The translations under genes were made by a program, and so were the position numbers. Shown here piece by piece: positions 19,892 through 42,087 of a stretch of DNA of 64,000 nt; the first letter of the stretch is position 1; each line of letters begins with the position of its first letter. The notes beneath the pieces were generated by a model. It did not search any database. It was not told the DNA's origin and saw nothing but the letters and a program-made list of their open reading frames with translations. This DNA comes from Sulfurovum sp. UBA12169 (GTDB taxonomy: Bacteria > Campylobacterota > Campylobacteria > Campylobacterales > Sulfurovaceae): positions 445,707-509,706 of the forward strand of contig DLUH01000005.1 in NCBI GenBank assembly GCA_002742845.1, given 5' to 3'.

Positions 19892-20206
19892 ATGTTTGAA
19901 GGATTAGATTTGGGCAATATGAGCAAAATGCTCGAACAGATGCAGGAAAAAGCCAAGACACTTCAGGAAGAAGCCAAAAATATTGAGTTGACAGCGAAAA
20001 GCGGCGGTGGGCTCGTCGTAGTAAAAGCCAATGGCGCAGGGGAGATTATAGATGTTGAGATCGATGACAGCCTATTGGAAGATAAAGAATCGCTGCAGAT
20101 TTTACTTATAAGTGCAATGAATGATGTGATCAAAATGGTAGAAGACAATAAAAAGTCTCAGGCGCTGGGAATGATGGGTGGATTCAATCCTTTCGGATCA
20201 AAATAG
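19892..20206 (+). CDS. ebfC: YbaB/EbfC family nucleoid-associated protein
   Basis: 104 aa. Typical features: an opening rich in Met and Gln ([18 protein letters not shown]), [18 protein letters not shown], and the DLLEDKE-like helix ([12 protein letters not shown]). Members form tweezer-like dimers that bind DNA. It abuts panD. It converges with the 42-aa gene on the other strand, 2 bp apart. Confidence 0.92.
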
Positions 20207-20208
20207 GT

Positions 20209-20337
20209 TTATAGTTTTTTGACATCGACAAGATAGTTGAATTCCTTGGATGATTGCAGTTTAACGATTGCTCTTGATGTTAACGAGTGATATCCATCTA
20301 ACTTAATCACTTTTTTAAGGATTTTGCTTATTTTCAT
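20209..20337 (-). CDS. 42-aa microprotein under a Pho-type promoter, function unknown
   Basis: A short reverse-strand gene starting MKISKILKKVIKLDGYH and ending LVDVKKL. The strong SD AAAGGAGAAATC is 3-4 nt from ATG 20337. Upstream on the same strand lies a Pho box with the same spacing to a -10 (TATGAT) as in pstS. The protein is basic with an amphipathic N-terminal helix and no signal peptide, Cys or clear membrane span. I know no homologue. Codon use, SD and promoter make a real gene likely; the product could also be the by-product of a small regulatory RNA. Confidence 0.6.
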   Translation of the reverse strand: MKISKILKKVIKLDGYHSLTSRAIVKLQSSKEFNYLVDVKKL

Positions 20338-20384
20338 CTTGATTTCTCCTTTATAGTTTTTTGATCTCTCTTTGAGATAATAAA

Positions 20385-20417
20385 ATCATACAATAGCAAG
20401 ATTACCAAACGGTAACA
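20385..20417 (-). promoter_or_regulatory. Pho box and -10 for the 42-aa gene
   Basis: Reverse strand: TGTTACC-GTTT-GGTAATC (20417-20400), 9 bp, TATGAT (20390-20385). The predicted leader is about 40 nt. The box ends 9 bp before the start codon of the divergent ankyrin gene, so bound PhoB could interfere with that gene. Confidence 0.7.
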
Positions 20418-20428
20418 TAGGATAGATG

Positions 20429-20959
20429 ATGAATGAAATGACAGAAGTGATAGCCAACGATTCTCTGGTAAAAATGAAATCAATGCTTGAAAACGGAGCA
20501 AGTGCAATCAAGCCGATCCTCATCGGGGAAGAGTATGATCTTGAAGAGTATGACGAGATCAGCCCGCTTTTTTATGCGATACGCAAATATGCTTCTATTG
20601 AAATGATAGAGCTTTTGCTTGCGCATGGAGCAAATATTTATGATGTCGATAGAGATGGAGTGAGTGCTCTTGATATCGCTATTAAGTTTAAGCGCAAAGA
20701 AGTTGTCAAACTTTGTATAAACAAAGGCATTGATCTAAATCAGACAAAACGAAAAAGCGGTATCTTGCCTCTGATGCTGGCTTCATGTTTTAGTGATTTA
20801 GAAATGATCGCACTTCTCATTGAGTCAGGCGCCAAGTTGGATGCAAAAGACGGCTCAGGAGCAACAGCAAAGGACTATGCAAAAAAACTAGGGCAGAAAA
20901 AGGTCGTTGAATTTTTAGAAGAAAAAGGAGCCAAGTTTAATCTCTATCCCAATGAATAA
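20429..20959 (+). CDS. Ankyrin repeat protein
   Basis: 176 aa from ATG 20429 (ATG 20426 is possible but only 3 nt from AGGA). Three to four ankyrin repeats are visible: ISPLFYAIRKYASIEMIELLLAHGA-type, VSALDIAIKFKRKEVVKLCI, and LPLMLASCFSDLEMIALLIE, ending GATAKDYAKKLGQKKVVEFL. No signal peptide, so a cytoplasmic binding protein of unknown partner. It is divergent from the 42-aa gene and followed by a strong palindrome. Confidence 0.85.
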   Translation: MNEMTEVIANDSLVKMKSMLENGASAIKPILIGEEYDLEEYDEISPLFYAIRKYASIEMIELLLAHGANIYDVDRDGVSALDIAIKFKRKEVVKLCINKGIDLNQTKRKSGILPLMLASCFSDLEMIALLIESGAKLDAKDGSGATAKDYAKKLGQKKVVEFLEEKGAKFNLYPNE

Positions 20960-24158: not shown

Positions 24159-24206
24159 TAACTGCAAAACCCCAATCATACAAATCCTTAAAAAATATTT
24201 TCATTC

Positions 24207-24239
24207 TGTAACCATTACGTTACAGGTTTTCATTAGAAT
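24207..24239 (+). promoter_or_regulatory. Pho box and -10 of the DUF3450-TonB system operon
   Basis: TGTAACC-ATTA-CGTTACA (24207-24224), 9 bp, TAGAAT (24234-24239). The predicted transcript starts about 24 nt before the DUF3450 gene. Confidence 0.75.
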
Positions 24240-35632: not shown

Positions 35633-36313
35633 ATGAAAAAAAATATAGAAATCATTTTGATAGAAGACGAAGAGGATATTTTAGAATTGCTTGAGTATCA
35701 TCTTGCCAAAGAGGGATACGAGGTAACCGGTTTTCTCTCTACGGAAAATGTAGAACAGTTTTTAGAAGAAGAGAGTCCTTCGCTTATGATTGTAGACCGT
35801 AATCTTCCCGGGATGGAAGGGAGCGAATTTGTTTGCAAGTTGCGACAATTGGGCTATGAGATCCCTATTATTTTTTTAACCGCAAGGGATCAGGAAGGTG
35901 ATCTTGAGGAGGGATTTAGAAGCGGGGGCGATGACTATATAACAAAACCGTTTAGCATTAAAGAACTTTTGCTGCGAATAGAAGCATTACTCAGAAGAAG
36001 CGGTGCCACAACAAATAATACAGTCCGATACAAAGATATGATGCTCGATCTTCAAAAACATCAGCTTTTCATCAATGAAGAGCCTGTTGATCTAACCAAC
36101 TTGGAGTTTAGACTGCTTCATGCATTCATAAAAAATCCAAAACGGCCGCTAGACAGAGATTTTTTGCGAGACAAGGTGTGGGGGAACGACAGTGCAACCT
36201 TTCATGATAAAACGATCAATGTGGCACTCAATAGACTGAAGAAAAAAATAGATCCTATGAATAAAAAGAACTATTTTGCTCCTGTGTGGGGCATAGGATA
36301 TAAATTGCTTTAA
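35633..36313 (+). CDS. phoB: PhoB-type response regulator (OmpR family)
   Basis: 226 aa. Receiver domain with acidic pocket (LIEDEED), phosphoacceptor Asp55 (IVDRNLPG), Thr (FLTARD) and Lys (ITKPFS), then an OmpR/PhoB winged-helix domain (LTNLEFRLLHAFI, HDKTINVALNRLKKKI, GIGYKLL). The context, upstream of pstS with a Pho box in front, makes it the Pho regulator. No histidine kinase gene (phoR or phosS) is adjacent or anywhere in the window. ATG 35633 lacks an SD; the conserved N-terminus leaves no later start. Confidence 0.88.
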   Translation: MKKNIEIILIEDEEDILELLEYHLAKEGYEVTGFLSTENVEQFLEEESPSLMIVDRNLPGMEGSEFVCKLRQLGYEIPIIFLTARDQEGDLEEGFRSGGDDYITKPFSIKELLLRIEALLRRSGATTNNTVRYKDMMLDLQKHQLFINEEPVDLTNLEFRLLHAFIKNPKRPLDRDFLRDKVWGNDSATFHDKTINVALNRLKKKIDPMNKKNYFAPVWGIGYKLL

Positions 36314-41877: not shown

Positions 41878-42087
41878 ATGCAAGCGGAATGTAACGTTTC
41901 AGATGAACATCTTGAAGAACTTTCAGCCAGAATCGCTAAATCATTTTTTATTACCGAAGAAGAAGCTTTAGAACTTATTTATGAAGAGTGGGAGAGAGTC
42001 GAAGCATTATTTGCAATTCATAAAAAAATAAACTTGGTACATCTGTATCTTATCGGCGAGATCAATGAGCTTTATAGGATAGCCTAA
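41878..42087 (+). CDS. 69-aa acidic protein cotranscribed with olsF-like gene, unknown
   Basis: A small helical protein (MQAECNVSDEHLEELS..., with EEEALELIYEEWERVEA) with no signal peptide. First gene after a Pho promoter and overlapping the olsF-like start by 1 base (TAATG). I recognise no family. The end (LVHLYLIGEINELYRI) could be a helix binding the acyltransferase or the membrane. Confidence 0.7.
   Translation: MQAECNVSDEHLEELSARIAKSFFITEEEALELIYEEWERVEALFAIHKKINLVHLYLIGEINELYRIA

Follow-up and report, generated by a model that had tools for sequence, protein, structure and literature searches.

The locus considered here lies in Sulfurovum sp. UBA12169, on a window of 64,000 nucleotides of contig DLUH01000005.1, by which the whole stretch of DNA that was analysed is meant. 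Between the convergent gene of the nucleoid-associated protein YbaB/EbfC (19892-20206, plus strand) and the divergent gene of an ankyrin-repeat protein (20426-20959, plus strand), a frame of 42 codons is found on the minus strand behind a promoter that appears to be of the Pho type. This raises the question whether a phosphate-starvation microprotein is made from this locus, and if so, on what it might act.

The minus-strand sequence was read directly. The ATG is at 20337, the frame (MKISKILKKVIKLDGYHSLTSRAIVKLQSSKEFNYLVDVKKL, 20209-20337) ends with TAA at 20209, and a ribosome-binding site, AAAGGAG (20346-20352, minus strand), lies 8 nt before the ATG, so that start, ribosome-binding site and length agree with the sequence-only reading of this DNA. 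Such short frames are common; dozens of at least 30 amino acids lie near this one. Here, 48 distinct orthologs of 41-43 amino acids remained after duplicate removal. Their median pairwise dN/dS is 0.23 and the mean differences at codon positions one, two and three amount to 0.29, 0.24 and 0.52, an excess at the third position, which points to strong purifying selection at the amino-acid level. Together with the ribosome-binding site, the start and the stop, this substitution pattern marks the frame as a real protein-coding gene. Conservation past the promoter, on which the earlier reading had staked itself, is thereby found, and the Pho-type promoter is conserved alongside.

The E. coli-type Pho box is a direct repeat, TGTCAT-N5-TGTCAT. 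Upstream of the 42-codon gene and on its strand, a direct repeat of 11-bp period is present (TGTTAC-N5-GGTAAT, 20401-20417), with the half-sites TGTTAC at 20417-20412 and GGTAAT at 20406-20401 and the spacer CGTTT. The -10 element TATGAT (20385-20390, minus strand) follows 10 nt after GGTAAT; counted after GGTAATC this is the 9-bp spacing that had been claimed, at the correct coordinates. In the window, pstS has a promoter built in the same way (TGTAAT-CAAAA-TGTTAT, ten bases, TATACT), and counted in the same manner (TGTAATCAAAATGTTATC, 9 nt, TATACT) its spacing is identical, in line with the claim that the microprotein promoter is as good as that of pstS. The box is thus like the E. coli type in being a repeat of 11-bp period upstream of a -10 element and ahead of pstS and phoB, whereas the half-site in Sulfurovum is TGTWAY and PhoB binding there is only predicted.

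Conservation of the box was scored by a left-out weight-matrix scan of the 250 bases upstream of each ortholog. The arrangement TGTWAY-N5-KGTWAY-N10-TANNNT is strictly kept in 40 of 48 orthologs and in 47 of 48 if the first base of a half-site is left free; the spacing is identical in these 47, and TANNNT is invariant in position. The sole ortholog without the arrangement, L062, has a leader that appears to carry inserted DNA. Apparent insertions between the Pho promoter and the ORF are seen in L036, L061 and L062, those in L036 and L061 being bounded by inverted repeats (MITE-like). Within the window, the pattern of box and -10 element has 8 matches versus 0.10 in shuffled sequences, well above what chance would give. 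Over the 1.86-Mb genome there are likewise 8 matches, all in one 21-kb island, versus 1 for the reversed pattern, in a scan that is not fully blind since the pattern was built mainly from the orthologs and the pstS promoter had been seen beforehand. If one mismatch is allowed, the extra genome matches fall to the control level. A promoter-proximal direct-repeat box is therefore common to the ORF, pst and phoB, and it is kept or lost with the gene (see below). From this we infer that the box upstream of the ORF is of the PhoB type and a predicted PhoB target.

The seven other strict boxes lie between 21116 and 41848 and belong to an Ig-like lipoprotein gene (21116), a DUF3450-ExbB-TonB-TonB-receptor operon (24192), a porin-like gene upstream of PHO4 (32639), phoB (35593), pstS (36505), pstC (37627) and an operon of a 69-amino-acid ORF and olsF (41816). 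By Pfam and NCBIfam, the island encodes a PhoB-like regulator, PstS, two ABC permeases, an ABC ATPase, PhoU, PHO4, OlsF and a TonB system; the porin was named from the look of its sequence and from its neighbours, its gene being without a Pfam model match. The box at 24192-24223 is nearly palindromic: its strict match points away from the TonB operon and a one-mismatch copy on the plus strand faces it; this operon may encode a TonB uptake system under Pho control. Directly behind its strict box, the 69-amino-acid ORF (41878-42087, plus strand) is conserved beside olsF in L150, L153 and L156 and may represent a second Pho-regulated small protein. Since no histidine kinase gene adjoins phoB (35633-36313, plus strand) in the window or in the related locus L146, the partner kinase of PhoB must be encoded elsewhere; 13 kinase-like matches are present in the genome, none of them over the PhoR cut-off. 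The slot of the island is fixed between panD-ybaB and recQ-rnhB-aroC (20426-46215 in the window, and in L146), and pst and olsF are absent from it in genome G050. The sequence of this window allows an almost complete reading of the Sulfurovum Pho regulon.

All orthologs, which are not statistically independent of one another, are from Sulfurovaceae. When 100 related genomes were searched at the protein level, most congeners proved to have the ORF; a profile search placed it in 43 of the 61 Sulfurovum genomes, its own counted, and in 0 of 39 genomes of other families, and among 397 genomes drawn evenly from the phylum it was confined to Sulfurovum and a second Sulfurovaceae genus. Weak matches in other families are pieces of unrelated or antisense frames and were rejected as distant homologs; a candidate paralog at C1:60.7 kb of this genome turned out to be a chance frame, and no relatives were found in viral contigs. 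Around 30% of the congeneric genomes searched are without the ORF, including the near-complete, PstS-bearing G011 and G039, and the gene is therefore not essential to Pho signalling. Every ortholog with known flanks occupies a single chromosomal site, with panD convergent and nearly always ybaB as well, which form the fixed flank, and in most cases with the ankyrin gene divergent on the other side, between the ORF and the next Pho-box unit. The microprotein evolves faster than its neighbours. Its distances nevertheless follow the panD and ybaB distances (Mantel r 0.53, p 0.001), as would fit vertical inheritance of the gene.

The box does not outlast the gene. No minus-strand box was found between ybaB and the gene that follows it in 16 genomes from the same family or order that keep ybaB and lack the ORF, of which L173 is uninformative as it ends just after ybaB. 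Since the box disappears together with the ORF while ybaB stays, box and ORF form one cassette, gained or lost as a unit. The cassette is also linked to phosphate genes. In 18 genomes the ORF lies 3.6-31 kb from PstS, and among the 61 congeners ORF and PstS co-occur (Fisher p = 0.004; 0.018 in the 34 genomes at least 90% complete) with exceptions in both directions. The ORF also stands beside porin, PHO4 and phoB in four near-complete genomes without a detected PstS (G050, G014, G022 and G040). In a strict scan of 22 congeners, these four have 2-3 boxes genome-wide, always including those of the microprotein and the porin, the latter lying across the ankyrin gene from the microprotein. Their reduced island consists of ORF, ankyrin, porin, PHO4 and phoB (L146-L149). 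In G050 the next genes are those of a RecQ-like helicase, RNase HII and chorismate synthase, whose counterparts in the window come after olsF. In the second genus (L164) the order is ORF-ankyrin-porin-PHO4-phoB-olsF-pst.

The encoded protein is basic, with a net charge of +4 to +9 in all orthologs. Two AlphaFold runs, with 30 and 48 sequences, predict helices at residues 3-14, 19-28 and 31-36/37 with a mean pLDDT of 84 and 83, respectively, packed as a three-helix mini-fold. G15, S30, E32, F33, Y35, L36 and D38 are invariant across the 48 orthologs and K12, S18 and K31 nearly so. Most of the invariant residues lie in the near-invariant C-terminal motif SKEFxYL[VI]D and not in the N-terminal helix, and a binding surface is best sought in this segment. 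Since no hydrophobic stretch is long enough for a membrane helix or a signal peptide, the microprotein is predicted to be cytosolic. Sequence searches of Pfam, NCBIfam, PHROGs and the PDB gave no match, and Foldseek against the PDB returned nothing credible for either AlphaFold model; the family is apparently undescribed.

Taken together, the conserved 42-amino-acid frame, the PhoB-type promoter of fixed spacing, the leader hairpin described below, the syntenic locus at the edge of the phosphate island and the joint gain and loss make it very probable that this is a translated microprotein gene of the Pho regulon, activated by PhoB and retained with its promoter over a long span of evolution. 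Under phosphate shortage PhoB, whose gene lies 15 kb away in this island, would bind the direct repeat in its phosphorylated form and activate transcription, as judged from the promoter type. The transcript would open with a small stem-loop, probably protecting its 5′ end, and yield a basic, soluble three-helix microprotein. This might then bind a larger partner in the cytosol or at the inner face of the membrane via the SKEFxYL[VI]D helix and tune the starvation response.

The identity of this partner can be named only tentatively. Binding via SKEFxYL[VI]D and a tuning of the starvation response, most plausibly through the module of PhoB and the PHO4 permease, is proposed with low confidence; this module is favoured because its genes are the island members that stay beside the ORF in the near-complete genomes in which PstS was not detected. 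These companions point towards PhoB, PHO4 or the kinase encoded elsewhere as candidate partners. Nevertheless, the linkage to PhoB and PHO4 could be simple co-location, and location alone is no proof. A more far-reaching and rather doubtful version would be that the lineage-specific microprotein is a dedicated regulator of a circuit of PHO4 and a PhoB whose locus has no kinase gene, acting via SKEFxYL[VI]D also where PstSCAB-PhoU is absent, and thereby replacing or supplementing the Pst/PhoU/PhoR signalling known from E. coli.

It is a possibility to be taken seriously, if short of probable, that the protein acts outside the Pho circuit as an effector of starvation in general. Here, a PhoB-controlled protein would bind the ribosome, RNA or DNA, or regulate (p)ppGpp synthesis, and so slow growth when phosphate is short. 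The positive net charge of all orthologs would fit this, and a precedent exists in YtfK of E. coli, which is induced by PhoB and binds SpoT (PMC8600398). Furthermore, the presence of the ORF where no PstS was found makes a target in Pst/PhoU unlikely. On the other hand, no relation in sequence or fold to any such protein was found, and the invariant acidic and hydrophobic residues of the motif (E32, F33, Y35, L36, D38) look more like a protein-protein interface.

The earlier reading had suggested that the basic amphipathic N-terminus could bind membrane or nucleic acid. Unlikely is the membrane version of this idea, in which a cationic amphipathic N-terminal helix lies in or on the inner membrane, from where the peptide would act on the membrane itself or on a membrane transporter. 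Residues 3-14 are indeed predicted to form an amphipathic helix, with a moment of 0.69 that 3.5% of shuffles attain and with K12 and L7 nearly invariant, and a PHO4 permease is encoded close by. However, the hydrophobic face is short, the helix is packed by AlphaFold as the first of three, and the strictly invariant part of the protein is the C-terminal motif.

The leader of the transcript deserves separate consideration. A 5′-terminal hairpin, ATCTC-AAAGA-GAGAT (20364-20378, minus strand), starts at about the predicted transcription start. Among 45 ortholog leaders, 43 have a stem of 4 bp or more that begins 3-10 bases after the -10 element, and since the stem sequences differ with compensatory changes (ATCTC/GAGAT, GTCTC/GAGAC, GTTTAGA/TCTAAAC, TTGCT/AGCAA and TGTTCT/AGAACA), selection appears to act on the pairing. 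The mean stem score is 10.5 versus 4.2 in shuffled leaders. The effect is, on these scores, real; it should not be overstated because an upstream control stretch also shows a mild stem excess (8.0 versus 6.0). Stem-loops at the 5′ end of leaders can slow mRNA decay, and by analogy this is the likely role here. A 14-base string of the leader, CAAAAAACTATAAA, is found again, as TCAAAAAACTATAAA, at the 3′ terminus of the ORF (20209-20365, minus strand). A weak similarity of the leader to the Rfam family freshwater-2 (RF02980; E 0.14-0.36) was rejected as chance, with 21.2 bits against a gathering threshold of 49.9 and no match in the leaders of 20 relatives.

This hairpin would also suit an RNA as the functional product, either a Pho-induced small RNA or an antisense to ybaB, with the short ORF being incidental. 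No intrinsic terminator was found between the ORF and ybaB, whose convergent frame ends 2 bp away, so that the transcript may run antisense into ybaB. Yet the selection acts at the amino-acid level (dN/dS 0.23), the gene persists beside panD in L044 and L078, where ybaB was not found, and the hairpin is the only conserved RNA element seen, with no credible match in Rfam, all of which leaves this reading very improbable. Of the microprotein or RNA with coding capacity that had first been proposed, the protein half is thus favoured, by coding conservation, and neither a terminator nor an Rfam family points to a separate RNA. Common as such short frames are, a chance ORF behind a chance promoter-like sequence is refuted by the orthologs, the dN/dS, the fixed box spacing and the genome-wide specificity of the box, and its probability is negligible.

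The Pho-regulon microprotein thereby offers a handle on the phosphate response of Sulfurovum, which is common among the sulfide-oxidising bacteria of vents and sediments. It may also matter for phosphate control without Pst, because the genomes in which PstS was not detected retain only 2-3 boxes and always those of microprotein and porin.

Within the Campylobacterota, the phosphate two-component system PhosS/PhosR of Campylobacter jejuni controls pst (PMC3197622). The Sulfurovum system differs in that phoB has no adjoining kinase gene, and no microprotein ortholog was found outside Sulfurovaceae. That small proteins can tune phosphate responses is shown by two published cases. One is the DUF1127 proteins, the SDPs of Agrobacterium and YjiS of E. 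coli, which bind the kinase PhoR (PMC12501420). They are likewise shorter than 50 amino acids, positively charged and linked to the control of phosphate uptake, a link that for the Sulfurovum protein is predicted. In contrast, the scanned orthologs have no Pfam match to PF06568 even at E 10, so that an assignment to DUF1127 was rejected; no DUF1127 protein exceeds the cut-off in this genome, and no kinase gene stands beside phoB in the window. The other is YtfK of E. coli, a small protein of the PhoB regulon that activates SpoT (PMC8600398). The 42-amino-acid family differs from it in matching no Pfam or NCBIfam model, and resembles it in being small, preceded by a Pho box, monocistronic and divergently oriented to its neighbour. 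With these features, the Sulfurovum protein would join the small set of phosphate-starvation microproteins.
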